Shown here piece after piece: positions 8,712 through 29,336 of a DNA stretch of 44,747 nt. Origin of the DNA: Clostridia bacterium (GTDB taxonomy: Bacteria > Bacillota > Peptococcia > Peptococcales > BICA1-8); assembly GCA_030154225.1 (NCBI GenBank), contig JASKKI010000013.1, forward strand, positions 1 to 44,747, written 5' to 3'. The position numbers and the translations under genes were made by a program. Within the stretch, counting starts at the first letter, position 1. Each line of letters opens with the position of its first letter. Below the pieces are notes generated by a model. The model saw only the letters and a program-made list of their open reading frames with translations, was not told the DNA's origin and searched no databases.

Positions 8712-8722
8712 GGAGGAAAATT

Positions 8723-11398: not shown

Positions 11399-11399
11399 G

Positions 11400-12098: not shown

Positions 12099-12115
12099 CT
12101 TAAGGGGGAAAAGAT

Positions 12116-13105
12116 ATGAAATTACAAGATAATTTTGGAAGAAAACATGATTATTTGCGGATATCTATAACTGATAGGTGTAATTTGCGCTGTATTTATT
12201 GTATGGGAGAAGAAGGTATTAAGCTTCTGGACCACAGGGATGTCCTTAGTTATGAAGAAATTATTGGTTTTGTTAAATTTTTAGCCCCCTTGGGAATTAA
12301 GAAACTGCGTATTACCGGTGGGGAGCCTCTGGTTAGAAAAGGTGTAGAGAACTTAATTGGTGGATTAAATGAAATAAGTGGAATTGAAGATATTGCCTTA
12401 ACAACCAATGGGGAGTTATTAGCACCTATGATTGATAAGCTTATGGACAACGGGTTGCGGAGAGTAAATATAAGCCTAGATTCGTTAAAACCCAATACTT
12501 ATAAAGAGATTACCCGTATTGGCAATCTAAATAAAGTTTTACAAGGAATAAATATTGCATTAAAGAAAGGGCTAACACCCCTAAAAATTAACGTGGTTCT
12601 TATGGCAGGGGTAAATGACGAAGAAATTTATGATTTTCTTAAACTAACTTTAGATGACCCTATCCATGTCAGATTTATTGAGTATATGCCATTAGATGGT
12701 CATGACCTTAAGTGGTCTAAACGTTATCTTTCTTTACAGGTAGTAAAAGAAAAGGCTACTGCTTTAGGGTTTAAATTAAATCCTGTCGAAGGTTTAATAG
12801 GTAATGGAACAGCTGAAACCTGGCGCATTCATGGAGCGAAGGGTACAGTGGGCTTTATTCATCCTGTTAGCAATCACTTCTGTGCTTCTTGTACCCGTTT
12901 ACGCCTAACTGCCGATGGTAAATTTAAACCTTGTCTTTACTGGCAGGAAGAACTTAATGTAAGGGATACTTTAAATGATCCCCCGGCTTTAACTAATTTA
13001 ATTAAGCAGGGGTTAGCAATGAAACATGAAAAACATTTAATGTCTCCCGGTATTGAAAATCAAGAACAAGGTTATGTGCGGTGTATGGCTCAGATTGGAG
13101 GTTAA
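12116..13105 (+). CDS. moaA: GTP 3',8-cyclase MoaA (radical SAM)
   Basis: A 329-residue radical SAM enzyme that converts GTP to 3',8-cyclo-GTP, the first step of molybdopterin synthesis. The SAM cluster is Cys22, Cys26 and Cys29 (CNLRCIYC). The second, substrate-side cluster is Cys256, Cys259 and Cys273. The essential C-terminal Gly-Gly is present (AQIGG). The ATG follows AAGGGGGAAAAG. The next gene starts 3 bases after its stop and carries MoaC, the following enzyme of the pathway. Confidence 0.95.
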   Translation: MKLQDNFGRKHDYLRISITDRCNLRCIYCMGEEGIKLLDHRDVLSYEEIIGFVKFLAPLGIKKLRITGGEPLVRKGVENLIGGLNEISGIEDIALTTNGELLAPMIDKLMDNGLRRVNISLDSLKPNTYKEITRIGNLNKVLQGINIALKKGLTPLKINVVLMAGVNDEEIYDFLKLTLDDPIHVRFIEYMPLDGHDLKWSKRYLSLQVVKEKATALGFKLNPVEGLIGNGTAETWRIHGAKGTVGFIHPVSNHFCASCTRLRLTADGKFKPCLYWQEELNVRDTLNDPPALTNLIKQGLAMKHEKHLMSPGIENQEQGYVRCMAQIGG

Positions 13106-13108
13106 CTA

Positions 13109-14107
13109 ATGGATATTCCCATTATATCAGTTGTTGCAGCTGGTTCAGGCACTGGCAAAACAACTTTTCTGGAAAAACTTATTGGAGAATTGGTTGCTAG
13201 AGGAATCAAAGTTGGCACAATTAAAAGTGATGCCCATGGTTTCGAAATAGATAGACCAGGCAAGGATAGCTGGAAACATGCCCAGGCCGGGGCTAAAGCA
13301 ACTGCCATTATCGGGCCTGATAAATATGCAATTATTCATAAAGTTCCTGTGCGCAAAAATTTAGATGATGTGGCAGGTATTTTTGAAGATGTAGATATAA
13401 TTCTTGTTGAAGGATACAAAAAGGGTGATAAACCCAAAATTGAAGTGATAAGGAAGGAAAAAGGAACAGAACTATGTTCACCACTAAAGGATTTAATTGC
13501 TGTTGTAACTGATATGGAATATTTAGATGTTCCTGTTCCGGTATATGACCTGAATGATGCCGAAGGAATAGCCGATTTAATTGAAAAGCAGTTTTTAAAA
13601 AAGGAACAGGCAAATAATGATTCATATGAAGTTTTAACCCATTTCAACCAACAAGGAAGGGCACATATGGTGGATGTAACATCCAAAGATGTTACTACTA
13701 GAGAGGCCATTGCTCGGGGTGAAGTTTGGATGAAAGAAGAAACTTTAAAGTTGGTTGCCCAGGGTAAAATGGCGAAAGGGGATGTACTTGCTGTTGCTCA
13801 GGTGGCGGGAATAATGGGAGTTAAAGAAACCAGCCGTTTAATTCCAATGTGCCATCCTCTTAATATTGGTTCAGTTAATATAGAATTTAATTTAGACCAG
13901 AAAAAAAATAAGGTTGATATTGAATGCCGGGTTAAAATTACTGGGCAAACAGGTGTAGAGATGGAAGCTTTAACGGGGGTAAATATAGCTGCTTTAACCA
14001 TTTATGATATGTGTAAAGCAGTTGATAAAAATATGGTTATTAATAACATTCGCCTGGTTAGAAAAACAGGTGGTAAAAGTGGTACTTATCAAAGGGAGGG
14101 AGAATAA
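13109..14107 (+). CDS. MobB-MoaC fusion protein
   Basis: A 332-residue two-domain protein. Residues 1 to about 165 are MobB, a GTP-binding protein that assists guanylylation of molybdopterin (P-loop GSGTGKTT at 12-19, [31 protein letters not shown]). Residues about 175-332 are a complete MoaC, cyclic pyranopterin monophosphate synthase ([59 protein letters not shown]). It joins an early and a late step of the pathway. A GGAGG at the end of moaA serves the ATG at 13109. A separate mobB exists at 28830. Confidence 0.92.
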
Positions 14108-15021
14108 TGGGTAAGGTAGTTGCTGTATGTACCAGTCCTAAAAAAGGAATGCGTAAAAAAAATGTAGGACAGGGTATGCTTTTAGTTGATCTAGGTTTAA
14201 AAGGAGATGCCCACGCCGGTTTTGCTCATCGTCAAGTTAGTTTATTAGCTTTGGAAAGTATAGAGAAGATGAAAAAAATGGGGCTAGATGTAGGTCCGGG
14301 GGACTTTGCTGAAAACCTGACAACCCAGGGTATTGATCTGGTTAATCTGCCGATAGGGACCCGTTTTAAGATAGGTGAAGCTGTTCTCAGAGTAACCCAA
14401 ATAGGAAAAGAATGTCATACCAGATGTGCTATTTATTATCAAGCCGGTGATTGTGTAATGCCTAAGGAAGGTATTTTTGCAGAAGTATTGAAAGGTGGAG
14501 AGGTTAAGGTAGATAATGAAATAAAGTTTTTACCCAGTTATAAACTCGGCATAGTAACTGCTAGTGATAAAGGTGCACGAGGAGAAAGGGAAGATGAAAG
14601 TGGGCGGGTAATTAAAGACAAGCTTCGTTTTCTAGCTGATGTTGCTGATTACAGAATAGTTCCCGATGAGAAAGAAGAGTTAAAAAAAGCTTTTATAGAG
14701 TTAGCCGATGAAAAGAAGGTTGATTTAATATTGACCACAGGTGGAACTGGTTTTAGCCCCAGGGACGTAACCCCTGAGGCTACTATAGAAGTTATAGATA
14801 GACATGTTCCCGGTATTCCTGAAGCCATAAGGTGGCAAAGCTACCAAATTACTCCCAAGGCCATGCTTTCCAGAGGTACTGCCGGTATTAGGGGAAAAAC
14901 TTTAATCATAAATTTACCCGGAAGTCCTAAGGCTGTGAGTGAATGTTTGGATGTTGTTTTACCGGTGTTGGATCATGGGTTGGAGATTCTTACGGGGCAG
15001 GGCGGCGAATGTGCCAGGTAA
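14107..15021 (+). CDS. MOSC domain fused to MogA/MoaB molybdopterin adenylyltransferase
   Basis: A 304-residue fusion. The first roughly 140 residues are a MOSC domain with GLKGDAHAG, QVSLLA, the GDFAENLTT segment and the conserved Cys in GKECHTRC, a fold associated with sulfur carriage to metals. The rest is MogA/MoaB (VTASDKGARGEREDESG, LTTGGTGFSPRDVTPEAT, INLPGSPKAV), which adenylylates molybdopterin before MoeA acts. The ATG overlaps the previous stop by one base (TAATG). Last gene of the operon; a long hairpin follows. Confidence 0.92.
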   Translation: MGKVVAVCTSPKKGMRKKNVGQGMLLVDLGLKGDAHAGFAHRQVSLLALESIEKMKKMGLDVGPGDFAENLTTQGIDLVNLPIGTRFKIGEAVLRVTQIGKECHTRCAIYYQAGDCVMPKEGIFAEVLKGGEVKVDNEIKFLPSYKLGIVTASDKGARGEREDESGRVIKDKLRFLADVADYRIVPDEKEELKKAFIELADEKKVDLILTTGGTGFSPRDVTPEATIEVIDRHVPGIPEAIRWQSYQITPKAMLSRGTAGIRGKTLIINLPGSPKAVSECLDVVLPVLDHGLEILTGQGGECAR

Positions 15022-15056
15022 TTAGCATTCAAATACCAGTATAGCAAAGCATCTCT

Positions 15057-15106
15057 AAAAATCTAGGCCTCAGTCGTATAATAATACGTCGAGGACCTAG
15101 GTTTTT
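15057..15106 (+). terminator. Terminator-like hairpin closing the pterin operon
   Basis: An imperfect stem joins AAAAATCTAGGCCTC to GAGGACCTAGGTTTTT around TCGTATAATAATACG. Five T residues follow. The sequence is related, in opposite orientation, to the hairpin after the formate dehydrogenase gene at 17975. Confidence 0.7.
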
Positions 15107-15152
15107 AAATAATGTAGCTAGACGAAGTATTTCAATGGTCTTAAAGTAATTT

Positions 15153-15184
15153 TTATGTGAATTATTAACATAATAAGTTATAAT
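15153..15184 (+). promoter_or_regulatory. Putative promoter and palindromic operator of the formate dehydrogenase gene
   Basis: A perfect TATAAT lies at 15179-15184. The -35 region is poor and overlaps a 21-bp palindrome (TTATGT...ACATAA, 15153-15173, with inner AAT/ATT pairing). This suggests a regulated promoter with a leader of about 75 bases. The factor is unknown. Confidence 0.35.
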
Positions 15185-15267
15185 GTAATAGAATATTCCA
15201 TTAAGGTTTTATAGTACAGATTTTTTTTTGAATAGTTTAGAATATTTACAACTTTGGGAGGGATAGA

Positions 15268-17952
15268 ATGGTTACTTTTAAGATAAATGGTCAAGTTGTA
15301 AAAGCCCCGGAAGGTACGACTATCCTGGAAGCTGCTAAAAAAATGGGTATAGAAATTCCTACCTTTTGTTATGATTCCAGGTTAAAGCCCCATGGTACTT
15401 GTAGAATATGTGTTGTGGAAGTAGAAAAGGCAAAAAGTCTACAAGCGGCTTGTTCCACCCCTATTGCTGAAGGAATGAGTATTTGGACCGAAAGTGAGCC
15501 GGTGGTGGAAGCCAGGAAAGAAATTCTAAATTTATTACTATCCAACCATCCTTTAGATTGTTTAACCTGTGATAAGTCAGGCAATTGTACCCTGCAAGCC
15601 TTATGTCAAAAATATAATATAACAGGTAGTACGCATCAGGGCCAAAAAAGCAGATATGAAAGAGATGAATCTAATCCTTTTTATTATGTGGATTTGAATA
15701 AATGTATTTTATGTAGAAAATGTGTACTCGTTTGTTCTGAGTTACAGTGTTCTGATGCCATTGGAGTGGCTGATAGAGGTTTTGCTTCCCATATAACCCC
15801 TCCCTTTGAAAAAGATATTGAACATTCCAACTGTGTTTCCTGTGGGAACTGTGTGGCAGTATGTCCTACAGGGGCACTGGTTCCTAAGAGAAAAGAAAAA
15901 TTTAGTTATGGTGAAGTCCAGATTGTGCAAACCACCTGTCCTTACTGTGGTGTAGGCTGTCAGATGGAATTGCTAGTAAAAAATAATAAAGTGGTAGAAG
16001 TCAGACCGGTATTTGCTAAACCCAACGATGGCTTGTTGTGTGTTAAAGGTAGATTTGGTTTTAATTTTATTAACCATCCTGACCGTCTGAAAAAACCGTT
16101 AATCAAGAAAAATGGTACTTTTGTAGAAGCAACTTGGGAAGAAGCCTATCAAATAATTGTTGATAAAATTAAAGAAATTAAGGAAAAGTATGGAAGTGAT
16201 GCCCTGGCGGGCTTAGCATCAGCAAGGTGTACCAATGAAGAAAACTATTTAATGCAAAAATTATTTAGAGCGGTAATTAGAACTAACAATATTGATCATT
16301 GTGCCCGACTTTGTCATGCTTCCACCGTTGCCGGTTTAGCTACAACATTAGGTAGTGGGGCCATGACAAACAGTATTGCTGAAGTACTGGATGCCGATGT
16401 TATCTTTGTTACCGGTTCAAATACAACGGAAACTCACCCGGTTATTGGAGCCAAAATCAGACAGGCTATTCGCCACAATGGAGCTAAACTGATAGTGGCC
16501 GAGCCTAGGAGAATAGATTTAGCAAAGGATGCGGATGTGTTTTTACAAATAAAACCTGGGACAAATGTAGCTTTGATGAACGGTTTGATGAGTGTTATCT
16601 TAGAAGAAGGACTTTATGATGAAGATTTTATAAGAAACAGGACAGAAAACTTTTCAGAGTTGAAAAAAATAATAACTGCTTTTTCCGCTGAAAAAGCTGC
16701 GGAAATTTGTGATGTTGATGTACAAGATATTAGAAAAGCTGCTAGAATATATGCAGCTGGAGAAAAGGGAGCAATTTATTATGCCATGGGAATTACCCAG
16801 CATAGTACAGGAACTCAGCATGTAATGAGTATATCTAACCTGGCTTTATTATGTGGCAATATAGGTAAAGAAGGGGTAGGAGTTAATCCTCTCCGCGGTC
16901 AAAATAATGTTCAAGGTGCCTGTGATATGGGAGCATTGCCTAATGTCTACCCAGGTTATCAAAAGGTAAATAGCCCGGAGGTACAGGAAAAGTTTGAAAA
17001 AGCCTGGGGATTTAAATTATCACCCAATGCCGGTTTAACCTTACCGGAGATGTTAGAAAAAGCTGAAAATAATGAATTGAAATTATTGTATATTATGGGT
17101 GAAAATCCTCTTGTTTCTGATCCGGATATAAATCATGTCCGCAAAGCGTTAGAAAATCTTGATTTCTTAGTAGTTCAAGACATTTTTTTAACAGAAACCG
17201 CCCAATTAGCTGATGTAATTTTACCAGCTGTATCTTTTGCAGAAAAAGATGGAACTTTTACCAATACGGAAAGAAGGGTGCAATTAATCCAAAAAGCTAT
17301 TAAGCCTATTGGTGATGCCAAACCGGATTGGGTAATCTTAATGGAAATTATGGATAGGCTGGGTTATAAAAAGGAATATTTACATCCTTCCGAAATTATG
17401 GAAGAAATTGCAGCTGTTACTCCCCAGTATGGAGGAATAAACTATTTCAGGATTAAGCAGGAAGGTGGTTTGCAATGGCCTTGTCCTACAAAAGATCATC
17501 CCGGTACTAAGTACCTACACCAGGGTCATTTTACCCGAGGAAAAGCATTATTTATGGCCGTTGATTATCAACAGCCTGCGGAAAATGCAGATGAAGATTA
17601 TCCTTTGATCCTAACTACCGGACGTATACTATACCAATATCATACTCGAACCATGACTGGGCGAGTAGAAGGATTAAACAAAAAAGCACCTGAAAGTTAT
17701 ATAGAAATTCATCCTGAAACAGCAAACAAACATAAAATAGAGGATGGAGAAATAATAAGGGTTATATCCCGCAGAGGTGCTATTTTTACCAAAGCACGGG
17801 TAGTTGATATAGTTAATAAAAATATAGTATTTATGCCATTTCATTATGCGGAAGGGGCAGCTAATGTCTTAACTAATAATACCTTAGATGAGAATTGTAA
17901 AATACCAGAATTGAAGGTTTGTGCCGTTAAGATAGAAAAAATAGAAATTTAG
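15268..17952 (+). CDS. fdhA: Formate dehydrogenase catalytic subunit with NuoG-like N-terminus (Cys form)
   Basis: An 894-residue W/Mo bis-pyranopterin enzyme that interconverts formate and CO2 in the cytoplasm. Domains in order: [2Fe-2S] (Cys34, 45, 48, 62); a His-Cys cluster (His94, Cys98, 101, 107); two [4Fe-4S] clusters (CILCRKC, CVSCGNC); the molybdopterin Fe4S domain (Cys224, 227, 231, 258); catalytic domain; C-terminal dinucleotide-binding domain. The active-site position is Cys349 (CARLCHAST), where many relatives have selenocysteine. Length and layout match NAD(P)-linked FDH alpha subunits such as Moorella FdhA, but no diaphorase or HydABC-like partner is adjacent. The ATG has GGGAGGG upstream. 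A role in CO2 fixation or formate oxidation is inferred. Confidence 0.88.
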   Translation: MVTFKINGQVVKAPEGTTILEAAKKMGIEIPTFCYDSRLKPHGTCRICVVEVEKAKSLQAACSTPIAEGMSIWTESEPVVEARKEILNLLLSNHPLDCLTCDKSGNCTLQALCQKYNITGSTHQGQKSRYERDESNPFYYVDLNKCILCRKCVLVCSELQCSDAIGVADRGFASHITPPFEKDIEHSNCVSCGNCVAVCPTGALVPKRKEKFSYGEVQIVQTTCPYCGVGCQMELLVKNNKVVEVRPVFAKPNDGLLCVKGRFGFNFINHPDRLKKPLIKKNGTFVEATWEEAYQIIVDKIKEIKEKYGSDALAGLASARCTNEENYLMQKLFRAVIRTNNIDHCARLCHASTVAGLATTLGSGAMTNSIAEVLDADVIFVTGSNTTETHPVIGAKIRQAIRHNGAKLIVAEPRRIDLAKDADVFLQIKPGTNVALMNGLMSVILEEGLYDEDFIRNRTENFSELKKIITAFSAEKAAEICDVDVQDIRKAARIYAAGEKGAIYYAMGITQHSTGTQHVMSISNLALLCGNIGKEGVGVNPLRGQNNVQGACDMGALPNVYPGYQKVNSPEVQEKFEKAWGFKLSPNAGLTLPEMLEKAENNELKLLYIMGENPLVSDPDINHVRKALENLDFLVVQDIFLTETAQLADVILPAVSFAEKDGTFTNTERRVQLIQKAIKPIGDAKPDWVILMEIMDRLGYKKEYLHPSEIMEEIAAVTPQYGGINYFRIKQEGGLQWPCPTKDHPGTKYLHQGHFTRGKALFMAVDYQQPAENADEDYPLILTTGRILYQYHTRTMTGRVEGLNKKAPESYIEIHPETANKHKIEDGEIIRVISRRGAIFTKARVVDIVNKNIVFMPFHYAEGAANVLTNNTLDENCKIPELKVCAVKIEKIEI

Positions 17953-17954: not shown

Positions 17955-18095
17955 ATATTTTTCAAAAACAAGGTCCTCGTATTATATTTATACGAGGGCT
18001 TTTTTTGTATTATTAGTCACTATAAATTACGTAGTCAATTTTTAAATATCTTGCAAATAGATAGGTTTTCTCTGATTTTTGTTTTTGAAAAATAT
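17955..18095. repeat. 16-bp perfect inverted repeats bracketing a terminator
   Basis: ATATTTTTCAAAAACA (17955-17970) recurs as its exact reverse complement at 18080-18095, with 109 bp between. The interval contains the terminator of the formate dehydrogenase gene and no ORF. It could be a tiny MITE-like remnant or chance in AT-rich DNA. Confidence 0.4.
17975..18006 (+). terminator. Rho-independent terminator after the formate dehydrogenase gene
   Basis: CCTCGTAT (17975-17982) pairs perfectly with ATACGAGG (17990-17997). A run of seven T residues follows at 18000. Confidence 0.85.
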
Positions 18096-18315: not shown

Positions 18316-19404
18316 ATGAATTTGCTACGAGCTAGATTATTATCTTATTTTCTCGTTGTATTTTTGGCATTGTCATTGGTGGGTTGTGCTGCTAATGTTC
18401 CAGAAGGTACAAAAAATATAGAGAACTCAATGTCGAAAAGTACTAATGGAAGTGAAAAAAGTAATAATGAATTTGAAATTATCCGTCAAGTATCAGACAA
18501 ATTTTTAAAAAATAATAAAGTGAAGCTCATAACCGCCCGGGAACTTTATGAAAGAGTAATCCTTACTGGAGATAAAAGTTTTCATATTGTAGATATCCGC
18601 GGCGGTAGTCATTTTGCCGAGGCCCATATTCCTGGATCTATTAATATACCTTATGGCGAGACCTGGAAAGAATTAAAAACTGAGTTTTTACCTAGAGACA
18701 AAAAAATTGTTTTAGTTTGTTATTCTGGTCATACTTCAAGTCAAACTGCAGCATTTTGGGGAATGCTGGGATTTGATGTAGTTGTTTTAAAAAACGGGAT
18801 GGCAGGATGGTCTAAATATGAACAATTTATTGGTAGTACACCTTTAGCCTGTGAACCTTTTGATTTTCCTTTAGTATCAGATGTTGTTAAGGAGCAATCC
18901 TTTTCTTTACCAGTTATTAAAGAGGGTATAACCGATCCTACAAGCCTGATACGCAAACGTTCTGAAAATTATTTGAAAGGTAATTTCAGTCCCGTTATTT
19001 TAGCCAAAGATGTAAAAGAAAGAATAGTTGATGGCATCGAAGGTAACAATTTTTACCTGGTAGATATCCGTACTCTTGAACATTATCAAACTGGCCATAT
19101 TGCCGGCAGTATTAATATTCCTTTGAAAACTGTTGCTGAAATTGATAGTCTTAAAAAACTTCCTACCGATAAAAAAATTATTGTTATTGGGTATGACGGT
19201 CATGATGCCAGTCAGGTTGTTCGTATTTTAGTCCAATTAGGCTATAATGCAACAGCGATGAAGGATGGTATACGGATCTGGAACGGAAATGAACAAGTTA
19301 CCGGTATTCAGGGTATAAACTGTGCCAATGTTAAAAACCTACCAACTGATAAATTAAATTATAAACCTAAGACAGATAGTGCACCGGCAACTTGTAGTGG
19401 CTGA
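18316..19404 (+). CDS. Lipoprotein with two rhodanese domains, the second lacking its active-site Cys
   Basis: A 362-residue protein with a lipoprotein signal peptide (LVGC, lipid-attached Cys24), so it should be anchored on the outer face of the membrane. Rhodanese domain 1 (about 72-170) has VDIRGGSHFAEAHIPGSINIP and the loop VCYSGHTSSQ with catalytic Cys135. Domain 2 (about 225-325) has VDIRTLEHYQTGHIAGSINIP, but the loop reads IGYDGHDASQ, with Gly292 in place of Cys, so it should not carry sulfane sulfur. It is the first gene of a Psr-like reductase cluster. By analogy with Sud of Wolinella, it may bind polysulfide and feed the reductase; this is inference. Confidence 0.88.
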   Translation: MNLLRARLLSYFLVVFLALSLVGCAANVPEGTKNIENSMSKSTNGSEKSNNEFEIIRQVSDKFLKNNKVKLITARELYERVILTGDKSFHIVDIRGGSHFAEAHIPGSINIPYGETWKELKTEFLPRDKKIVLVCYSGHTSSQTAAFWGMLGFDVVVLKNGMAGWSKYEQFIGSTPLACEPFDFPLVSDVVKEQSFSLPVIKEGITDPTSLIRKRSENYLKGNFSPVILAKDVKERIVDGIEGNNFYLVDIRTLEHYQTGHIAGSINIPLKTVAEIDSLKKLPTDKKIIVIGYDGHDASQVVRILVQLGYNATAMKDGIRIWNGNEQVTGIQGINCANVKNLPTDKLNYKPKTDSAPATCSG

Positions 19405-19433
19405 TTTCAATAATATTGATAGGAGGAGTTTAA

Positions 19434-21635
19434 ATGGTAAGAGTTAGTCGTCGTACTTTTTTGAAAGCTTCCGCTCTAGCAGGTGTAGCCAGTTCTTTAC
19501 CCCTAATGGTTAATTTTAATGATTTCGCCAGAGCGGCTCAAGAAGCTCCTATTACCAAAATTCCTACCATGTGTAACGGATGTTCCAGTACTTGTGGAAA
19601 GTATGTTTATATAAAAAATGGTAGGGTGTGGAAGGTAGAAGGTAATCCTATTAACCTAAAGTCTTCCGGTAAATTATGTGCCCGCGCGCATGGGATGGCA
19701 GCAGATGTATACGGCCTCGGACGGGTTACCCAGCCTATGAAGCGTATAGGGGAGATGGAATTTGAACCTATTAGTTGGGCCCAAGCTTTTGAAGAAATCG
19801 GTAATAAATTATATGAGATAATCAATGAACATGGTGGTAATTCTGTGATGTGGTTAGGCCATGGTGGCAAAGAACACTATGCCAGTACTTTTTTAGATGA
19901 AATAGGGTCAGCCAACTATGTTACCCACTATGCTACCTGTTTTTCTTCCAAAACCAATGTATGGGATAGAATGGTAGGAACAATGCTTAATTCTGATTTT
20001 GATAATGCCAACTACATGCTTTTTGTCGGTCGGAATTTTGCCGGAGGAATTATTCCCGGGGTTATGAACCGCATTACAAAAGCAAAGGAGCGGGGAGCCA
20101 AGGTTGTAGTTGTTGATCCCAGATACTGTGAGTTAGCAATCATTGCCGATGAATGGATTCCAATCAGGCCGGGGACAGATTTAGCACTTTTCTTAGGCAT
20201 AGCCCATACCTTAATTTCTGAAAAAATTTATGATAGATCCTTTGTAACAAATTATGTTTATGGTTTTGACGAATTCTGGAGTGCCAATAAAGACTTTACT
20301 GCCGAAAAAGCTGCGGAAATTACCGGGATACCTGCAGAAAAAATTCGGGAAATAGCCCGTGAAATGGCTGCCAATGCTCCTAAAGCATTTTTGGATACCG
20401 GCTATCACGGCTTACATGCTCATTATGCAAATAGTACTCAAATTGCTATGATGAACGTTGTGGTTAACGCTTTACTTGGTAATATGTTTCAGGTCGGAGG
20501 TTTAATGCCCAGTGCCGGCATAACTTTGGGTCATGTGGAAACACCCCAAAGGGAAATTCCTGAAAAAGGTCCCAGGGCAGATGGAGCGGGAGTGGATGAT
20601 GAATATCCAACTGTAGAACCAAGCCGGGGTATTCCTCAAATTGTACCGGATTTAATAAAAAAAGGTAGGATTAAAGCTTTGTTTATCTACCACTACAATC
20701 CATTAAGGACTGCTCCAGATCCGGAATACCAGAAAGGTTTAAAAGAAGCAGACTTAGTTGTCAGTATTCCTGTAGATTGGAATGAAACTTCTTTATATAC
20801 AGCTGATTATATTTTACCTGAAAGTTATTACCTGGAACGTACAGAGCCTCCTAAAGTAATATCCGGTTTTATCGCCCATGCATATCCTCAGATTGCTGTG
20901 AGAAGGCAGGCTATTAAGCCTATTCATAATACTTTACCTCTTCTAGATATACTGAAGGGGATTACGGCTGCGGCTGGCTATTACAATTTATATCCTTTTA
21001 CAGTTGAAGAGGAAATAAAGGCTAGTGTGAAGCCACTGAACATAGCTCCTGAGTTATTAATGGAAACAGGTTGCCTGGAGTTCCCGGCAAGTGTCCAGCC
21101 AGGTTTCCCTATGAAAGATGGAAAACCTGCCTTAAATACATTTACAGGTAAAGTTGAGTTCTCCATAGGTGCATTTAAACTTTATGGACGGCAGGGTGTA
21201 GCTACTTGGGTTCCCCCTCTGGTTATGCCCAATGGTGAAGATGAATTCCGGCTTATTCATGGGAAACAACCTTGGCATTCCCATCATTTTACCTGTAATA
21301 ATCCGTATCTCATGGCTATTTCTGATAAATATAATGGAACCTGGCTGTGGATGAATAAGACCAGAGCTGAAAAATTGGGAATTAAAAACGGAGATCTGGT
21401 AACCATTTCTTCAGAAAAAGCAACAAAAGAAATACGGGTAAAAATTACCGAATTATTACATCCCGATTGTGTTTGGATACCTTCTGCTTACGGTGGTTTT
21501 TCAGAAAAATTAAAAACTGCTTATCAAGAGGGTATCAATTATAACGATTTTATACCGGCTCGTGTTGAACCATTATCGGGAAGTGTTATGGGTCAGGAAG
21601 TAATAGTTAAGGTCCGTAAGGGGGGTAATAGCTAG
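19434..21635 (+). CDS. Psr/Phs-type molybdopterin oxidoreductase catalytic subunit (probable polysulfide or thiosulfate reductase)
   Basis: A 733-residue DMSO-reductase-family enzyme. A twin-arginine signal (SRRTFLK, Arg6-Arg7) precedes a hydrophobic stretch, so it is exported folded through Tat. An N-terminal [4Fe-4S] cluster uses Cys47, Cys50, Cys54 and Cys82. The likely metal ligand is Cys169 (YATCFSSK), as in PsrA/PhsA. The C-terminal dinucleotide-binding domain is complete. The following genes encode PsrB- and PsrC-like subunits. Neighbouring rhodanese lipoproteins favour sulfur compounds as substrate, though arsenate, tetrathionate or other oxyanions cannot be excluded without phylogeny. 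Confidence 0.87.
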   Translation: MVRVSRRTFLKASALAGVASSLPLMVNFNDFARAAQEAPITKIPTMCNGCSSTCGKYVYIKNGRVWKVEGNPINLKSSGKLCARAHGMAADVYGLGRVTQPMKRIGEMEFEPISWAQAFEEIGNKLYEIINEHGGNSVMWLGHGGKEHYASTFLDEIGSANYVTHYATCFSSKTNVWDRMVGTMLNSDFDNANYMLFVGRNFAGGIIPGVMNRITKAKERGAKVVVVDPRYCELAIIADEWIPIRPGTDLALFLGIAHTLISEKIYDRSFVTNYVYGFDEFWSANKDFTAEKAAEITGIPAEKIREIAREMAANAPKAFLDTGYHGLHAHYANSTQIAMMNVVVNALLGNMFQVGGLMPSAGITLGHVETPQREIPEKGPRADGAGVDDEYPTVEPSRGIPQIVPDLIKKGRIKALFIYHYNPLRTAPDPEYQKGLKEADLVVSIPVDWNETSLYTADYILPESYYLERTEPPKVISGFIAHAYPQIAVRRQAIKPIHNTLPLLDILKGITAAAGYYNLYPFTVEEEIKASVKPLNIAPELLMETGCLEFPASVQPGFPMKDGKPALNTFTGKVEFSIGAFKLYGRQGVATWVPPLVMPNGEDEFRLIHGKQPWHSHHFTCNNPYLMAISDKYNGTWLWMNKTRAEKLGIKNGDLVTISSEKATKEIRVKITELLHPDCVWIPSAYGGFSEKLKTAYQEGINYNDFIPARVEPLSGSVMGQEVIVKVRKGGNS

Positions 21636-22174
21636 TGGCTAGATTTGCAATGTTAATCGATGCATCCCGTTGTACAGGTTGTAATGCTTGTCGAATTGCC
21701 TGTCAAATGCAGTGGCAGTTGCCACCGGAAAGATACTTCAATAGATTGGAACATCGTGAACGGGGTATCTATCCCAATGCAAAATGGGAAATTGTACCAA
21801 TACAGTGTATGCATTGTGATAACCCACCCTGTCGGGACGTTTGTCCAACAGGGGCTACTTATAAACGAACTGATGGAATTGTTTTAATCGACAGCAAAAA
21901 ATGTATAGGTTGTAAATATTGCCTGGCTGCCTGCCCCTATGGTGTCCGCCAGATAAATGAAAATGGTGTGCCTGAAAAATGCAGATTCTGTGCTGAATAT
22001 ATTATCGAAGGTATAATGCCTCCCTGCACTAGTACCTGTATGAATGAAGTAAGGGTTTTCGGTGATTTGGATGATCCTAATAGTAAGATCAGTAAGCTAA
22101 TGGCTAAAAAAGAAGTCTATCAATTACTTCCGGAAAAAGGTACAAAACCGCGGATTTATTATGTGAAAAAGTAG
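21635..22174 (+). CDS. PsrB/PhsB-like four-cluster ferredoxin subunit
   Basis: A 179-residue electron-transfer subunit with four [4Fe-4S] motifs: CTGCNACRIAC, CMHCDNPPCRDVC, CIGCKYCLAAC and CRFC with CTSTC. It relays electrons from the quinol-oxidising membrane subunit to the catalytic subunit. It has no signal peptide and should travel with the catalytic subunit through Tat. The GTG start overlaps the preceding stop by one base, indicating translational coupling. Confidence 0.9.
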   Translation: MARFAMLIDASRCTGCNACRIACQMQWQLPPERYFNRLEHRERGIYPNAKWEIVPIQCMHCDNPPCRDVCPTGATYKRTDGIVLIDSKKCIGCKYCLAACPYGVRQINENGVPEKCRFCAEYIIEGIMPPCTSTCMNEVRVFGDLDDPNSKISKLMAKKEVYQLLPEKGTKPRIYYVKK

Positions 22175-22189
22175 AAAGGAGGGAATGTT

Positions 22190-23365
22190 TTGTTTACTAA
22201 AAAAAATTGGTTGTTAATTTCTTTATTGCTAATAGGTATTGGAGCCATTGGTGCTATTAACGTTTTACTTCACGGGGAACATGTATTAGGTATTAATAAT
22301 CAAGTACCCTGGGGTATTTTAATTGCCGGTTATGTATTTTTCGCTGTTTCCAGTACAGGTGTCGGTTTAATTTCTTCCTTGGGCCATGTCTTTGGTTTTA
22401 CCCGCTTTGAATTATTAGGCAGAAGAGCCCTTCTTGTCTCCATTATTCTTTTACTTTGCGGTTTTGGGGTACTTGGTTTGGAATTGGCTAATCCATTTAA
22501 TTTGATTTATATTTTACTATCACCAAATTTCAGATCTCCTATCTGGTGGATGGGTGCTTTTTATGGATTATATTTGATCTTGCTTTTTGCCGAATTTTAC
22601 TATAGTCTCCACAATGATCATAAAAAAGTAAAGCCAATTGCCAATGTGGCTTTTATTACTAAACTTGCAGCAGTTAGTAACCTTGGTGTAGTTTTCGGTA
22701 TGCTTCATTCCCGTCCCTTTTGGCAAGGTCCGTATTTTTCTTTGTATATGATTTTAACGGCTATTTTATCTGGATCCGCAATTCTGGCCATTATATTTTA
22801 CCTGGTGGGTGAAAAGGGCGGCCAGGTTGCATACAGGGGTGAGCATATTGTAATTTCCCTTGGTAAGATATTGGTTGCGGCTTTGTTTATTACCGCTATA
22901 TTTACTTTTTGGAAACTTATAACCAGTATTTATGGTGGTGTTCCCGGAAAATATGAAGCAGCTATTGCTTTGCTAAAAGGGCCACTAAGTCTTAAGTTTT
23001 GGTTATTTGAAATAATAGCTGGTTTAATTATACCCATTTACATCTTATTCAAATACCAATTTCAACCGGCCAAGGTTTTCCTGGCAGCAATATTAGCCAT
23101 GATCGGTGTTTTGTTTATGCGGATGGATTTTGTTTTTGCCGGACAAATCATTCCTTTAAGGGTAATAGAGGGGGCACTAAGTGTTCCTTACAATACCTAT
23201 GTACCGGGGTGGTCGGAATGGGCTTTAATACTTGGTGCCATTGGTGTAACTATTTTTCTTTATATAATTGGTGAGCAAAAATTTAAATTAGATGTTCAAG
23301 TAGAAGAAGAGTATCACGACCAAGCAGGAAATTTGGTTTCCGGAAAAGCACCGTTAAATAATTAA
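22190..23365 (+). CDS. PsrC/NrfD-like quinol-oxidising membrane anchor
   Basis: A 391-residue hydrophobic protein with about ten predicted membrane segments, the NrfD/PsrC type. It would bind the catalytic and ferredoxin subunits to the membrane and take electrons from menaquinol. There are no haem-binding CxxCH motifs. The TTG at 22190 has AAAGGAGGG upstream. The C-terminal tail is acidic and soluble. Confidence 0.85.
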   Translation: MFTKKNWLLISLLLIGIGAIGAINVLLHGEHVLGINNQVPWGILIAGYVFFAVSSTGVGLISSLGHVFGFTRFELLGRRALLVSIILLLCGFGVLGLELANPFNLIYILLSPNFRSPIWWMGAFYGLYLILLFAEFYYSLHNDHKKVKPIANVAFITKLAAVSNLGVVFGMLHSRPFWQGPYFSLYMILTAILSGSAILAIIFYLVGEKGGQVAYRGEHIVISLGKILVAALFITAIFTFWKLITSIYGGVPGKYEAAIALLKGPLSLKFWLFEIIAGLIIPIYILFKYQFQPAKVFLAAILAMIGVLFMRMDFVFAGQIIPLRVIEGALSVPYNTYVPGWSEWALILGAIGVTIFLYIIGEQKFKLDVQVEEEYHDQAGNLVSGKAPLNN

Positions 23366-23395
23366 CCACTAATTTAAGGGGGAGGAGGATTGATA

Positions 23396-24022
23396 GTGCC
23401 AAGTCTGGTCATGAGGCGGCAAGAAGCGGTTGCAGAAATATTTTTGATCTTCGCGGAATTTTTTAAATATCCCAGTAGAAGTTTTTTTGATGATCTCAAA
23501 TGGGGTAATGTTGATAATCAACTGAAAATCTTATTTAAAACCGCCAACTTTAACCTGGGAGTTCCTAATTTTTATTCATTTATTAGCGAATTTTCAGAAT
23601 TAAAATCCACATATGCCCGCTGTTTTTTAGGTATAACTAAACCATTTGCTTTACCGATAGAATCGGTATATAAGACTTGGACAACGGACCCTACTGTAAA
23701 ATTACCAATAGCTAATAGTAAAGGGTATGTAATGGGGGATTCCGCAATGCATATTCTACATTTATTTGAACATTTTCAATTAGAGATTCCAGAAGAATAT
23801 GGGATGATGCCCGACCACCTGACAATTCTTTTAGAGTTATATGCTTTTATGATTGGAAAACGTTCTCCAAAAGAATGTGAAATTTTTATTAAAGATCATT
23901 TTAATTGGCTGGATGATTTTAAAGATGCTTTATATCAGGTAAAGGAAAGTGGGTTTTATCTCTATGTTCTAGATACTCTACAGAAAGTGATTAGAGAAGA
24001 ACAGTGTTATTTAGAAGGCTAG
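23396..24022 (+). CDS. TorD/DmsD-family chaperone for the molybdoenzyme
   Basis: A 208-residue, mostly helical protein. TorD-like features are the early AEIFLIFAEFFKYPS, the central TYARCFLG and the PDHLTILLELYAFM segment, close to the family's E-PDH motif. Such chaperones hold the twin-arginine signal and apo-enzyme during cofactor loading. The GTG at 23396 is preferred because GGAGGAGG lies 7 bases upstream; an in-frame TTG at 23390 almost touches that site. It directly follows the PsrC-like gene, so its client is probably the catalytic subunit encoded at 19434. Confidence 0.82.
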   Translation: MPSLVMRRQEAVAEIFLIFAEFFKYPSRSFFDDLKWGNVDNQLKILFKTANFNLGVPNFYSFISEFSELKSTYARCFLGITKPFALPIESVYKTWTTDPTVKLPIANSKGYVMGDSAMHILHLFEHFQLEIPEEYGMMPDHLTILLELYAFMIGKRSPKECEIFIKDHFNWLDDFKDALYQVKESGFYLYVLDTLQKVIREEQCYLEG

Positions 24023-24050
24023 GAAAATTAAGAAAAAGGGAGAGGTGTAT

Positions 24051-25307
24051 ATGAAAAAGGGTTTTCCAAAATTCTTATTGGTTAGTTTACTAATTTTAAT
24101 GTTAGTTATTTCCGGTTGTGCAGCAAATGAGGTTAAAGCTCCGGAACCCAAGGCTAAAGTTGAAGAGCCTAAAGCTGATCCTAATGCCAAGGTTGAAGCC
24201 CCAAAAGCTGAAGGACCTAAACCACTTCCTAAAGATCCTAATTTGAATTATGTTGAAACTGCATTTATGGAAAAACTGATCAAAGATGCTAAAGTAGTAA
24301 GCCAGAGAACTTCTTATGATCAACCCCATCCGGAGTGGGATTTTGTCCTAGTAGATGCTCGTCCCAAAGCAAAATATGATGAAGGTCATATTCCCGGTGC
24401 CATCAATATTCCTTTTGATGAATGGGATAAATACAATAAATTATTACCCGAAGATAAGGAGAAGCCTATTTATTTCTACTGTGGTGGTCTTGCCTGTGGT
24501 TTAAGTCCTAAATCAGCCCATAAAGCTAAAGAAATGGGTTATAAAAATGTATTTAATTATCAAGAAGGTGAACCTGGTTGGAAGGAGGCAGGCAATTATT
24601 TAATTGTTACCCAAGATTATGTAAAAGCTTTATTGACTGAAAACAATATTACTAATACCGAACTAAAACCATACTTAATTTTAGATGCCCGTCCCTATAA
24701 ATTATATTTTGAAGGGCATATTCCAAATGCTATTCCAACTCCCGATGAAATATTTACTGAAAAATTCCTGGCCGCTATGCCCAATGATAAAGAAACGGAA
24801 CTTATAGTTTACTGTGGTGGTTTCTTCTGTGGTAAAAGCCATAAAGTTGCAGATATCCTAACTGGTAATGGTTATAAGAATGTAAAGGTATTTGCCGGTG
24901 GTATGCCATCCTGGGTTGAAGCCAAACTACCTGTATTTGGTACAAAATCAAGTGGAGCCAGTTTTGATGTAGCTGTCCAAGGTGAAGTAAATCGTGGCTT
25001 AACTCCCGGTGAATGGCAAGCTAAGATGAAAGGTAATTATGTAGTACTGGATGTAAGAACAGCCGGTGAAAGGGAAAATGGAGCTATCAAAGGTTCCCTG
25101 CATATCCCCAGTGGAGATATTAATAAAGATCCTCAAGCCATAGTATCCAAATTACCAAATGATAAAAATACAACAATTTTAATTCACTGTGCCAGTGGAG
25201 CAAGGGCGGCCAGTGTTATTGATAAAATTGTCGACTTAGGATATAAGAATGCATTTTACCTAAAGAGCAGGATAGTAATTGATAAAGAAGGTAATTTTAG
25301 TTTCTAA
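24051..25307 (+). CDS. Lipoprotein with three rhodanese domains
   Basis: A 418-residue protein with a lipoprotein signal (VISGC, Cys23) and a Lys/Pro/Glu-rich spacer (about 28-62) that would hold the domains off the membrane. Domain 1 (about 90-182) has the active loop YCGGLACG with Cys144; domain 2 (about 190-292) has YCGGFFCG with Cys255; domain 3 (about 312-410) has HCASGARA with Cys379. All three catalytic cysteines are present, and the first two loops each carry a second Cys five residues later. It ends the Psr-like operon and likely binds sulfane sulfur on the outer membrane face. The ATG at 24051 has GGGAGAGG upstream. Confidence 0.88.
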   Translation: MKKGFPKFLLVSLLILMLVISGCAANEVKAPEPKAKVEEPKADPNAKVEAPKAEGPKPLPKDPNLNYVETAFMEKLIKDAKVVSQRTSYDQPHPEWDFVLVDARPKAKYDEGHIPGAINIPFDEWDKYNKLLPEDKEKPIYFYCGGLACGLSPKSAHKAKEMGYKNVFNYQEGEPGWKEAGNYLIVTQDYVKALLTENNITNTELKPYLILDARPYKLYFEGHIPNAIPTPDEIFTEKFLAAMPNDKETELIVYCGGFFCGKSHKVADILTGNGYKNVKVFAGGMPSWVEAKLPVFGTKSSGASFDVAVQGEVNRGLTPGEWQAKMKGNYVVLDVRTAGERENGAIKGSLHIPSGDINKDPQAIVSKLPNDKNTTILIHCASGARAASVIDKIVDLGYKNAFYLKSRIVIDKEGNFSF

Positions 25308-25937: not shown

Positions 25938-25969
25938 ATCCTTGTCTCCTTTGGGGACAAGGATTTTTT
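25938..25969 (+). terminator. Riboswitch-controlled terminator before mobA
   Basis: ATCCTTGTC (25938-25946) pairs with GACAAGGAT (25956-25964), followed by a T-run to 25969, only a few bases before the mobA ribosome site. AAAGGAGA (25911-25918), the 3' strand of P1, is exactly complementary to TCTCCTTT (25945-25952) inside this hairpin, giving an antiterminator. The predicted logic is: cofactor bound, P1 forms, transcription stops. Confidence 0.85.
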
Positions 25970-25982
25970 ATTGGAGGAAACA

Positions 25983-26594
25983 ATGGTTATTAAGTATCAA
26001 AATTTAGGACTTATTATCCTTGCCGGTGGTAAAAGCAGTAGAATGGGTAAAGATAAAGCCTTTTTAGAACTGGGTGAAGGCACCTTAATTGAAATGCTGG
26101 TTGAAAAGGGTAGGGATTTTGGCTTTGATGAAATAATAATTGTCAGCAATGAGATAGAAAAATACTTATTTTTAAAAGTAAAAGTTGTCAAGGATTTTTA
26201 TCCCGGTATGGGTCCATTAGCAGGTATCCATGCCGGTTTAACCCATTCAAGATATTGGAATAATTTTGTTATTCCCTGTGATATGCCTTTTATTTCTTTA
26301 GAGCTTATTAAACAATTATTAGCTGTTCAAAATGATTGTAAGGTAGTAGTTCCGAAGATAGGTGATAAATTTCAACCTCTTGCCGCTCTTTATACAAAAG
26401 ACTGTGTTTCACACATTGCATACCTACTAGAAAATAAAATCAGTAAGGTTATTGAACTTTATGATTTGGTAAAGACTTGTTATTTGGAAATTGAGGAGAA
26501 TAATTGCTTTTTTAATATCAATACACCGGATGATTTTTTAAAAGCCAAGAAATATGTTAAGGAGGATGTGGGGTATGGAAAAAGTGAGGGTTGA
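25983..26594 (+). CDS. mobA: Molybdenum cofactor guanylyltransferase MobA
   Basis: A 203-residue nucleotidyltransferase that attaches GMP to molybdopterin to give the bis-MGD form used by FDH and the Psr-like enzyme. LAGGKSSRMGKDK (13-25) is the nucleotide-binding signature, followed by GPLAGIHAG and the metal-binding IPCDMPF. The ATG at 25983 is preferred over an in-frame TTG at 25971 because GGAGG (25973-25977) lies between them. It is the first gene behind the second riboswitch. Confidence 0.9.
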   Translation: MVIKYQNLGLIILAGGKSSRMGKDKAFLELGEGTLIEMLVEKGRDFGFDEIIIVSNEIEKYLFLKVKVVKDFYPGMGPLAGIHAGLTHSRYWNNFVIPCDMPFISLELIKQLLAVQNDCKVVVPKIGDKFQPLAALYTKDCVSHIAYLLENKISKVIELYDLVKTCYLEIEENNCFFNINTPDDFLKAKKYVKEDVGYGKSEG

Positions 26595-27597
26595 AGATGC
26601 TGTGGGAATGGTTTTAGGTCATGACATAACAAAAATTATTCCCAATGAATTTAAAGGTAGGGCCTTTAAAAAGGGCCATATAATCTCTCTGCAAGATATT
26701 CCGGAATTATTAAATCTTGGTAAAGAACACATTTATATTATGAAAACAGATAGTGGAACCATTCATGAAAATGAAGCTGCTTTGAGATTGGCAAAAGCAG
26801 GTGGAAAAATAGGAGTTTCCTTTTCTGAACCTAAGGAAGGAAAGGTAAATCTGATAGCAGATAATCCAGGCCTTTTAAAAGTAAACAGAGAACTACTTAA
26901 AACAATTAATTCTCTTGATGATATCATGTTTGCCACCTCCCATAATAACCGTCCTGTATTAAAAGGAGAGATTGTGGCCGGTACCCGGATCATTCCTCTG
27001 GTAATTGATGAAAAACCTATAAAATATATTGAAGAACTGTGTGCAAAAGAAAACTTGATTGAGATAAAACCATATAAAAAAGCTAAAGTAGGTATAGTGA
27101 CTACAGGAAATGAAGTTTATTATGGAAGAATTAAAGATGCCTTTGGTCCGGTATTAAGAAATAAATTAGAGCCTTATGGCTGTACTATTTGGGGACAAAA
27201 AATAGTTTCTGATTCCCAGGAACAAATTCAAGTAGCAATAAAGGATTTTATGCAAGAAGGGGTAGATATTATCCTGACTACAGGGGGAATGTCTGTCGAT
27301 CCTGATGACGTAACCCCTTCAGCTATCAGAGAGTTGGGAACAAGGATAATATCTTATGGTGCACCTGTCCTTCCTGGGGCTATGTTCCTGATGGGATACC
27401 TGGGGAATATCCCCATTATGGGGTTGCCGGGTTGTGTTATGTATGCCAAAATAACGGTTTTTGATTTGATCTTGCCCCGTGTACTTGCAGGTGAAGTTAT
27501 AAATAAGTCTGATATAGTTGAATTAGGTCATGGTGGTCTCTGTTTTGAATGTAAGCCCTGCCGCTACCCAAACTGCAGTTTTGGGAAAGGAGTTTAA
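26575..27597 (+). CDS. MoeA/MoaB-like molybdopterin-binding protein with a C-terminal Cys motif
   Basis: A 340-residue protein. The N-terminal half is a MoeA-like region (VEDAVGMVLGHDITKIIP). The second half is a MogA/MoaB-like molybdopterin-binding fold (VGIVTTGNEVYYG, LTTGGMSVDPDDVTPSAIR, PGAMFLMGYL, MGLPGCVMY). It ends in a Cys-rich tail, CFECKPCRYPNC, that probably binds a metal or an Fe-S cluster. The ATG at 26575 has AAGGAGG 8 bases upstream and overlaps mobA by 20 bases. Homologues occur near molybdenum hydroxylases and cofactor-insertion genes, but I know no defined reaction. Confidence 0.78.
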   Translation: MEKVRVEDAVGMVLGHDITKIIPNEFKGRAFKKGHIISLQDIPELLNLGKEHIYIMKTDSGTIHENEAALRLAKAGGKIGVSFSEPKEGKVNLIADNPGLLKVNRELLKTINSLDDIMFATSHNNRPVLKGEIVAGTRIIPLVIDEKPIKYIEELCAKENLIEIKPYKKAKVGIVTTGNEVYYGRIKDAFGPVLRNKLEPYGCTIWGQKIVSDSQEQIQVAIKDFMQEGVDIILTTGGMSVDPDDVTPSAIRELGTRIISYGAPVLPGAMFLMGYLGNIPIMGLPGCVMYAKITVFDLILPRVLAGEVINKSDIVELGHGGLCFECKPCRYPNCSFGKGV

Positions 27598-27600
27598 AGT

Positions 27601-28845
27601 ATGTTTAAAGGAGTTCAGCTTGAAGAAGCACAAAAATTGTTATTAGAAGTAACAGATATAATGCCGAGTATAACAATATCATTAGAAAAAGCATTGGGTA
27701 AAGTATTAGCCGAAGGAGTTTTTGCCCCCATAAATGTTCCTCACTTTAGGAGATCCCCACTAGATGGTTTTGCCCTAAAAGCGTGTGATACAATAGGAGC
27801 ATCGGTAAATACACCTCGAATAATTGAAATTATTGATGAAGTACAGGCTGGAGATACAAGGGAAATAAATACTTTACCCCACAACTGTGGAGTAAAAATA
27901 ATGACTGGTGCACCTTTACCCCTCGAAGCAGATGTAGTCATTAAAAAAGAAGATGTTATCTATAAAAATAATAAAATATATGTAACTGAAGAATTATGTA
28001 AAAATAATAATGTTATTTTCGTCGGCTCTGACCTGGAAGAAGGACAGCTTATTTTTTCGGAAGGAGAAAATTTAGGACCATATCATATTGGTGTATTAGC
28101 AGCTTTAGGGTTAATCTATGTTAAAGTTTATCAAATCCCGGAAATTGCCCTGATAAGCACAGGAAATGAACTTAAAAATCCGGGAGAAAAATTGGCATAT
28201 GGACAAATTTATAACAGTAATCTATACTCTTTAAAATCATTAATTACTAGTTTGGGTGGAGAAGCCCACAATCTTGGAATCGTTCAGGATAATGAGGAAG
28301 AAATAAAAGAAAAAATTTCACAAGCTTTAAACAAATATCAAATGGTATTGACAACAGGCGGTGCTTCAGTTGGTGATTATGACTTGATAGAGAAAGTTTT
28401 AAAAATGATTGATGCTTCAATTCTTTTTAATAGAGTGGCTATTAAGCCCGGTTCACCAGTTATTGCAGGAGTTAAAGATGGTAAATTAATTATAGGTTTA
28501 TCCGGTAATCCGGCTGCCGCTTTAATAAGTTTTGAATTACTAATAAGGCCCCTTATTAAAAAAATGTTGGGTTATCAAAAATTTGCAAATAGATACTTAG
28601 AAGCAGAGCTTGAAGATGGTTTTTCAAAAACAAGTCCTCAACGAAGATTTTTACGGGTCCGAATAACCTATGAAAATGGCAAGTGGGTAGCGAGACAGAC
28701 TGGCAAACAACAATCCAGTATTTTAAGATCTATGGTCGGTTGCAATGCACTAGTAGATATCCCCAGAGGTTCAGGACCTATTGCACCGGGTTCTGTAGTA
28801 AAGGCTATATTATTAAAGGAGGAACTATTATGTTACCACCTATAG
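27601..28845 (+). CDS. moeA: Molybdopterin molybdenumtransferase MoeA (second copy)
   Basis: A 414-residue MoeA with PHFRRSPLDGFAL, the KIMTGAPLPLEADVVIKKED stretch, STGNELKNPGEKL, LTTGGASVGDYD, AIKPGSPVIAG and GLSGNPAAA. It should insert molybdate into molybdopterin-AMP. The central loop reads DGF and the PGxPxxxG motif carries Ser rather than Lys, unlike the MoeA at 7482, consistent with a paralogue of different metal preference (inference). It starts 3 bases after the preceding gene and its end overlaps mobB by 16 bases. Confidence 0.9.
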   Translation: MFKGVQLEEAQKLLLEVTDIMPSITISLEKALGKVLAEGVFAPINVPHFRRSPLDGFALKACDTIGASVNTPRIIEIIDEVQAGDTREINTLPHNCGVKIMTGAPLPLEADVVIKKEDVIYKNNKIYVTEELCKNNNVIFVGSDLEEGQLIFSEGENLGPYHIGVLAALGLIYVKVYQIPEIALISTGNELKNPGEKLAYGQIYNSNLYSLKSLITSLGGEAHNLGIVQDNEEEIKEKISQALNKYQMVLTTGGASVGDYDLIEKVLKMIDASILFNRVAIKPGSPVIAGVKDGKLIIGLSGNPAAALISFELLIRPLIKKMLGYQKFANRYLEAELEDGFSKTSPQRRFLRVRITYENGKWVARQTGKQQSSILRSMVGCNALVDIPRGSGPIAPGSVVKAILLKEELLCYHL

Positions 28846-29336
28846 TTTCAGTTGTAGGTACAACAGGTTCGGGCAAAACTACATTTCTGGAAAGGCTAAT
28901 AAAAGAATTAAAAAAAAGAAATTGGAAAATCGGAGTAATTAAAAATGATGTGCATGGATTTGATATTGATAAACCGGGAAAGTCCACCTGGCGTTTTCGA
29001 GAAGCAGGCGCAGATAATGTTATGATTTGTGGGCCTGATAAAATGGCTTTTATAGAAAAACATCAGGAAAAAAAGAGCTTAGATGCTTATTTATCCTATT
29101 TCCGAGAAATGGATTTAGTATTAACAGAAGGATTTAAGCGGGAAAATAAACCTAAAATAGAGTTATATAGAAAGGATAATGCTAAAGACTATATTCTATG
29201 TAATGAAGATGAGCTAATAGCTTTTGTAACCGATGATATCCCACCTAAAGAAATTGCTAAACCAATTTTTGGTTTTGAAGAAATCTCAAAAATTGCCGAT
29301 TTTCTGGAAGAAATCTTTATAAAAACCGGGATTTAG
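28830..29336 (+). CDS. mobB: Molybdopterin-guanine dinucleotide biosynthesis adapter MobB
   Basis: A 168-residue P-loop GTPase-like protein (VGTTGSGKTTFLERL) with DVHGFDIDKPGKSTW and LTEGFKRENKPKIEL. It is closely similar in motif pattern to the MobB half of the fusion at 13109, but free-standing. It assists MobA in making MGD. The ATG at 28830 has AAAGGAGG upstream. Last gene of the riboswitch operon, closed by a hairpin. Confidence 0.9.
   Translation: MLPPIVSVVGTTGSGKTTFLERLIKELKKRNWKIGVIKNDVHGFDIDKPGKSTWRFREAGADNVMICGPDKMAFIEKHQEKKSLDAYLSYFREMDLVLTEGFKRENKPKIELYRKDNAKDYILCNEDELIAFVTDDIPPKEIAKPIFGFEEISKIADFLEEIFIKTGI

Follow-up and report, generated by a model that had tools for sequence, protein, structure and literature searches.

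A srrEABCDF-type operon, most likely for selenite respiration, in a Clostridia bacterium and a probable selenocysteine form of its three-domain rhodanese in relatives

Results and discussion

A six-gene operon among molybdenum-cofactor genes

The window analysed here is a 44,747-nucleotide stretch of a Clostridia bacterium genome (GenBank assembly GCA_030154225.1, contig JASKKI010000013.1). Positions 18316-25307 contain six genes on the same strand, which encode a lipoprotein with two rhodanese domains, a TAT-exported MopB protein, an Fe–S protein with four clusters, an NrfD protein, a TorD-type chaperone and a lipoprotein with three rhodanese domains (Table 1). All six match their Pfam families far above the cut-offs, which confirms the Psr/Phs-like A, B and C subunits, the chaperone and the two rhodanese lipoproteins recognized in an earlier sequence-only reading of this DNA. 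The intergenic gaps are 29, −1, 15, 24 and 22 nt, and the six genes are, as read from the sequence, spaced as a single operon. The two terminator-like hairpins on either side of it are taken as supportive only, because the number of hairpins in the region (eight observed, 6.1 by chance) is close to that expected by chance. Mo/W-cofactor, aldehyde ferredoxin oxidoreductase (AOR) and formate dehydrogenase genes flank the operon (window positions 2673-17952 and 25971-29336): the AOR gene, ThiF-, MoeA-, MoaA-, MobB–MoaC- and MOSC-type genes and the formate dehydrogenase gene lie 5′ of it, and MobA-, MoeA- and MobB-type genes lie 3′.

Table 1. Features of the operon in the window, with the masses given for the MLS10 subunits in a 2025 review (PMC12481199), and in-frame TGA codons in the homologous genes of relatives
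Feature	Position	Strand	Remarks	MLS10 mass (kDa)
Terminator-like hairpin	17970..18002	+	Between upstream formate dehydrogenase gene and operon; pattern only	
srrE-like, lipoprotein, 362 aa, 40.1 kDa, two rhodanese domains	18316..19404	+	Pfam Rhodanese x2, 111 bits	38
srrA-like, catalytic Mo-bisPGD subunit, 733 aa, 81.2 kDa, one [4Fe-4S] domain	19434..21635	+	Pfam Molybdopterin/Molydop_binding/Molybdop_Fe4S4	80
srrB-like, Fe-S subunit, 179 aa, 20.5 kDa, 16 Cys, enough for four [4Fe-4S] clusters	21635..22174	+	Fer4_11	17
srrC-like, NrfD/PsrC membrane anchor, 391 aa, 43.2 kDa	22190..23365	+	NrfD	43
srrD-like, TorD/Nitrate_red_del chaperone, 210 aa, 24.7 kDa	23390..24022	+	Nitrate_red_del	24
srrF-like, lipoprotein, 420 aa, 46.5 kDa, three rhodanese domains	24045..25307	+	Pfam Rhodanese x3, 170 bits	45
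Codon TGT of srrF-like Cys262	24828..24830	+	Replaced by an in-frame TGA in the homologues of seven relatives	
Terminator-like hairpin	25938..25964	+	3′ of operon, ahead of mobA; pattern only	
In-frame TGA, SECIS-like hairpin 3′	L030:13440-13442		Column of window SrrF Cys262	
In-frame TGA, SECIS-like hairpin 3′	L159:1385-1387		Column of window SrrF Cys262	
In-frame TGA, SECIS-like hairpin 3′	L052:13163-13165		Column of window SrrF Cys262	
In-frame TGA, SECIS-like hairpin 3′	L053:12448-12450		Column of window SrrF Cys262	
In-frame TGA, SECIS-like hairpin 3′	L064:11967-11969		Column of window SrrF Cys262	
In-frame TGA, SECIS-like hairpin 3′	L157:7374-7376		Column of window SrrF Cys262	
In-frame TGA, SECIS-like hairpin 3′	L158:8802-8804		Column of window SrrF Cys262	

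The catalytic subunit belongs to the PsrA/PhsA/SrrA lineage

The leader of the srrA-like protein reads RRTFLK and scores just below the cut-off of the TAT_signal model (20.6 of 22.7 bits), and its Cys169 aligns with the Cys-ligand stretch of Thermus thermophilus PsrA (PDB entry 2vpw). In a maximum-likelihood tree of 60 catalytic subunits, 17 close sequences, which share 58-87% identity with the window protein (about 43% or less for the next homologues), form one clade (SH-aLRT 100) within the PsrA/PhsA lineage, which is published as PsrA/PhsA/SrrA. The clade takes in Mesobacillus selenatarsenatis and Tepidibacillus decaturensis, and the formate dehydrogenase sequences lie apart from it.

The sequence-only reading had asked whether the catalytic subunit might group with arsenate or other non-sulfur reductases, and the tree places it in the PsrA/PhsA/SrrA lineage with the ArrA-like sequence outside. 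A reductase of arsenate, selenate or some other substrate that is not a chalcogenite could be argued from the distant scores to ArrA and DmsA/YnfE-type models, but the ArrA score is only 147 of 1600 bits (NF041714), and both the ArrA-like row (L146_9225) and NapA lie well outside the 17-member clade; such a function is thus highly improbable, and arsenate reductase in particular is excluded by the ArrA score and the tree.

The nearest NCBIfam family is the PhsA thiosulfate reductase (NF012032), whose model gives 382 bits where 694 are required. The window complex has in common with Thermus PsrA and enteric PhsA the catalytic lineage and the Fe–S subunit, and with Psr also the NrfD anchor; it differs in the low identity to PhsA (about 29%, with the family cut-off not reached) and in its multi-domain rhodanese lipoproteins, which Psr and Phs do not have.

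The layout of the operon matches srrEABCDF of Bacillus selenitireducens MLS10

A six-gene operon is known for the selenite respiratory reductase (Srr) of Bacillus (Salisediminibacterium) selenitireducens MLS10. According to a 2025 review (PMC12481199, citing Wells 2019), SrrA carries a TAT leader and one 4Fe–4S cluster, SrrB carries four 4Fe–4S clusters, SrrC is the anchor, SrrD is the chaperone, and SrrE and SrrF are rhodanese proteins. The window has the same six genes, with the same functions, domain content, TAT leader, 4Fe–4S counts and two rhodanese proteins, and the masses correspond closely (Table 1), although SrrB is 3.5 kDa larger in the window. The abstract of the original description (Wells et al. 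2019, J Bacteriol) reportedly gives the gene order as srrE, A, B, C, D, F, and the window genes follow the same order.

The window operon therefore agrees with Srr in its six-gene content, in its subunit masses and in the PsrA/PhsA/SrrA lineage of its catalytic subunit. From layout, masses, lineage and named carriers, the two operons are probably orthologous. The layout, which the sequence-only reading had believed undescribed, is not new, since its domains and masses match the published srrEABCDF, both rhodanese proteins included; Psr operons with rhodanese genes have also been reported in haloarchaea (PMC6176080). The accounts of MLS10 Srr that we consulted make no mention of a lipoprotein tether, of the numbers of rhodanese domains, or of the C-x4-C loops and selenocysteine forms described below.

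The sequences themselves show the gene order, the domains, the export signals, the lineage and the conservation. With good probability, in our judgement, the island is an srrEABCDF operon, whose product would be a respiratory reductase that depends on quinol and faces outward from the cytoplasmic membrane, with selenite as its most likely substrate. Of the earlier proposal of a sulfur reductase, the Psr/Phs type holds, but sulfur as the substrate is weakened, because the best-matching characterized system, on the accounts consulted, reduces selenite.

Conservation of the operon and its carriers

In all 17 clade members, multi-domain rhodanese lipoproteins are encoded next to the catalytic subunit, or in the same genome where the contig ends. 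A draw of 300 genomes from the phylum contained six with a close catalytic subunit, counting that of the window; all six (6/6) encode the three-domain SrrF, and none of the remaining genomes does. Together with the gene order, which a synteny survey found conserved in relatives, this co-occurrence bears out the proposed functional link between the Psr/Phs-type complex and the rhodanese lipoproteins. Of 18 genomes, 17 have the three-domain SrrF, a Negativicutes MAG having a two-domain lipoprotein in its place, and 16 have SrrE, reduced to one domain in two of these; G326 and G347, both 59% hits, showed no SrrE upstream.

Several variations of the locus should be mentioned. The gene for the three-domain lipoprotein is tandemly duplicated in G326 (L137:12022-14727), and Natroniella and Fuchsiella have no NrfD gene between B and D (L052:11206-12399 and L053:10484-11692). 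Two contigs carry a second PsrA/PhsA-like catalytic gene, of about 40% identity, near the srr operon (L068:16194-18374 and L048:10931-11791). Three loci from Halanaerobiia (L157, L158 and L064) have the order D-B-A-F; there, a three-domain rhodanese of the Sec type neighbours an A subunit that reaches only 38% identity and lies outside the srr clade. Finally, in MAGs of Nitrospirota and deltaproteobacteria (L056, L058, L059, L065, L067 and L072), a single-domain exported rhodanese gene directly precedes a PsrA-like gene; the full-length A subunits of these loci form one clade in the 60-row tree.

The named carriers include Mesobacillus selenatarsenatis SF-1, Tepidibacillus decaturensis, Bacillus sp. 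ISL-41 and ISL-45, Natroniella sulfidigena and Fuchsiella alkaliacetigena. Fuchsiella uses selenate, and a Tepidibacillus MAG (98% ANI to T. decaturensis) was dominant in reactors supplied with selenite and, in the same study, gave matches to MLS10 SrrA and SrrB with E values below 1e-50. These carriers make selenite the likeliest substrate in our inference, despite Natroniella sulfidigena AHT3, which was described for sulfur-dependent respiration.

One may wonder whether the enzyme instead reduces polysulfide or elemental sulfur, with SrrE and SrrF capturing the sulfane sulfur of polysulfide and feeding it to the catalytic subunit. Such a model has been proposed for haloarchaea, where rhodanese genes lie within a psrA–D operon and these operons are expressed on sulfur, although they are archaeal and differ in gene composition (PMC6176080). 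The PsrA/PhsA/SrrA lineage, the operon of strain AHT3 (without an NrfD gene at that place) and the exported rhodaneses before related A subunits in Nitrospirota and deltaproteobacteria all point the same way, and the naming of the nearest NCBIfam family as a thiosulfate reductase, albeit below its cut-off, speaks against selenite. Yet the only characterized operon found with the six-gene layout is, on the accounts consulted, a selenite reductase, the named carriers feature selenium-oxyanion reducers prominently, domain 2 of SrrE has no Cys, and the residue that replaces a cysteine of SrrF in relatives is probably selenocysteine, which suits selenium chemistry without proving it. We consider a sulfur substrate unlikely and retain selenite.

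The rhodanese lipoproteins do not form a five-domain relay

Both window proteins have a lipobox, with Cys24 in srrE-like (LVGC) and Cys25 in srrF-like (ISGC). Domain 1 of SrrE has the loop C135YSGHT, the Cys of which is missing from several relatives in the loop alignment, and in domain 2 the active-site position is occupied by GYDGHD, with no Cys. The three loops of SrrF in the window are C146GGLAC151, C257GGFFC262 and HC382ASGAR. Among the aligned loops, the C-[GN]-G-x-x-C motif of domain 1 is found in 17/18, CGGFx followed by Cys or UGA in domain 2 in 18/18, and the canonical HCAxGxRA loop of domain 3 retains HCxxGxR in 18/18. These conserved loops support, at the level of sequence, a specialized role for SrrF. 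Multi-domain rhodaneses such as EanB and YnjE match its AlphaFold model (pLDDT 84) only domain by domain, with TM-scores below 0.3, and the arrangement of the domains is uninformative.

The sequence-only reading had envisaged five tethered domains, joined by a flexible Lys/Pro spacer, that pass sulfane sulfur to the reductase. The domains are present (two and three), but only four of them could carry a persulfide, as domain 2 of SrrE has no active-site Cys. The Lys/Pro-rich spacer (about residues 26-60 of srrF-like) is real and predicted to be disordered (pLDDT below 50 at residues 23-55), but it is common only to the window and its closest relative, BRH_c20a. The membrane tether is seen on both window proteins, but SrrF of Natroniella and of Fuchsiella has no lipobox. 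With a Cys-less domain 2 and a variable domain 1 in SrrE, an unconserved spacer and lipoboxes missing from SrrF of some relatives, a relay through five tethered domains is not supported and is ruled out as it was formulated.

Sud-type polysulfide carriers are exported rhodaneses tied to sulfur respiration. They share export with the two lipoproteins, but are single-domain and soluble, and neither window protein, with two or three domains and a lipobox, belongs to this type. Rhodanese ExtH is also tied to selenite reduction, in the selenite/tellurite ext cluster of Geobacter; however, no MopB reductase is listed for that cluster (PMC5877670), whereas the window operon has one, and the ExtH model score is far below its cut-off (20.6 of 200 bits).

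A probable selenocysteine codon in SrrF of seven relatives

Seven relatives have a single TGA, in frame, in the column of Cys262: G086, G154, Natroniella, Fuchsiella and three further Halanaerobiia, G706, G738 and G739 (Table 1). The UGA takes the place of the second cysteine of domain 2, and the frame downstream is open and conserved through domain 3. Fission of the gene into two ORFs, or an error, was ruled out, as the break is one TGA in the same column in seven genomes.

In each of the seven UGA forms, a hairpin stem of 7-8 bp, capped by a tetraloop whose first base is G, stands at position 27 from the UGA; such a stem is found in only one of 13 Cys forms (G083), with A first in the loop. 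Tested gene by gene against synonymous shuffles, this signal is weak both for a hairpin at any position (P 0.11-0.30) and for a fixed position with a G-first tetraloop, a rule set post hoc (P 0.008-0.11). The stem shows one two-sided A–U/G–C exchange, at one pair.

SelB is present in all five UGA-form genomes tested (G086, G154, Natroniella, Fuchsiella and G706). Among the 19 carrier genomes tested, SelB is lacking only in the window's genome (G000) and BRH_c20a, and a tRNA-Sec over the cut-off is missing in these two and in the incomplete G154 (85% complete). Since G000 and BRH_c20a lack both, the window lineage appears to be without Sec machinery and has Cys; its srrF-like gene, with a TGT codon, no SelB and no tRNA-Sec over the cut-off, does not encode a selenoprotein. 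In the seven relatives, the in-frame UGA and the SECIS-like hairpin, together with the Sec machinery of the five genomes tested, mark SrrF as a probable selenoprotein, with Sec in the C-x4-U loop of domain 2. The U/C state requires at least two changes on the SrrF tree. A 2026 review of prokaryotic selenoprotein families gives the rhodanese forms UxxS, UxxG, CxU and UxxxxU (TsoB), and CxxxxU is not among them; we found no description of Sec in the active-site loop of a three-domain SrrF-type rhodanese.

We lean towards a reading in which SrrF is a partner dedicated to handling chalcogen for the selenite reductase, the active-site loop of its domain 2 being C-x4-Sec in several lineages but C-x4-Cys elsewhere; it would then be a selenoprotein encoded within a selenium-respiration operon, in a CxxxxU form absent from the 2026 list. 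A more tentative possibility, compatible with either substrate, is that SrrF acts as a thiol-redox partner: its C-x4-C/U loops would alternate between a dithiol state and a disulfide or selenylsulfide state and exchange electrons with the substrate or another exported protein. Redox sites typically have two nearby cysteines, as in domains 1 and 2, and allow Sec to replace Cys, as at the second position, and the paired chalcogen residues of TsoB, a rhodanese/DsbD-fusion selenoprotein, have the same x4 spacing (U-x4-U), although SrrF itself is not a TsoB (109 bits against a cut-off of 805 for NF045694). This possibility fits less well with the canonical HCxxGxR loop kept in domain 3 in 18/18 and with an operon that encodes no thioredoxin-like or DsbD-like electron donor.

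Proposed mechanism and implications

As a member of the Psr family, the complex is expected to pass electrons from menaquinol to SrrC, then through the four [4Fe–4S] clusters of SrrB to the Mo site of SrrA, which would reduce selenite to Se(0) on the outer side of the membrane; SrrD would serve as the cytoplasmic chaperone of SrrA. SrrF, and less strictly SrrE, may handle the zero-valent chalcogen formed outside the cell, a suggestion favoured by a report that rhodanese binds selenium in the form of a perselenide (Ogasawara 2001, cited in PMC8538045). The paired Cys (or Cys/Sec) of SrrF domains 1 and 2 could take up the chalcogen as a perselenide or a Cys–Se–Cys adduct, and the HCxxGxR loop of domain 3 could hand it on or release it, the direction of transfer being a guess; such handling would keep SrrA and the cell surface from being poisoned.

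The srr operon, barely sampled and with one characterized example, now counts 18 or more genomes within the sets covered here, and a rule that combines synteny with clade membership is now available for telling srr from other Psr/Phs homologues. The role of SrrE and SrrF has also become testable, as the C-x4-C/Sec loop marks the residue pair that would be expected to bind or exchange selenium.
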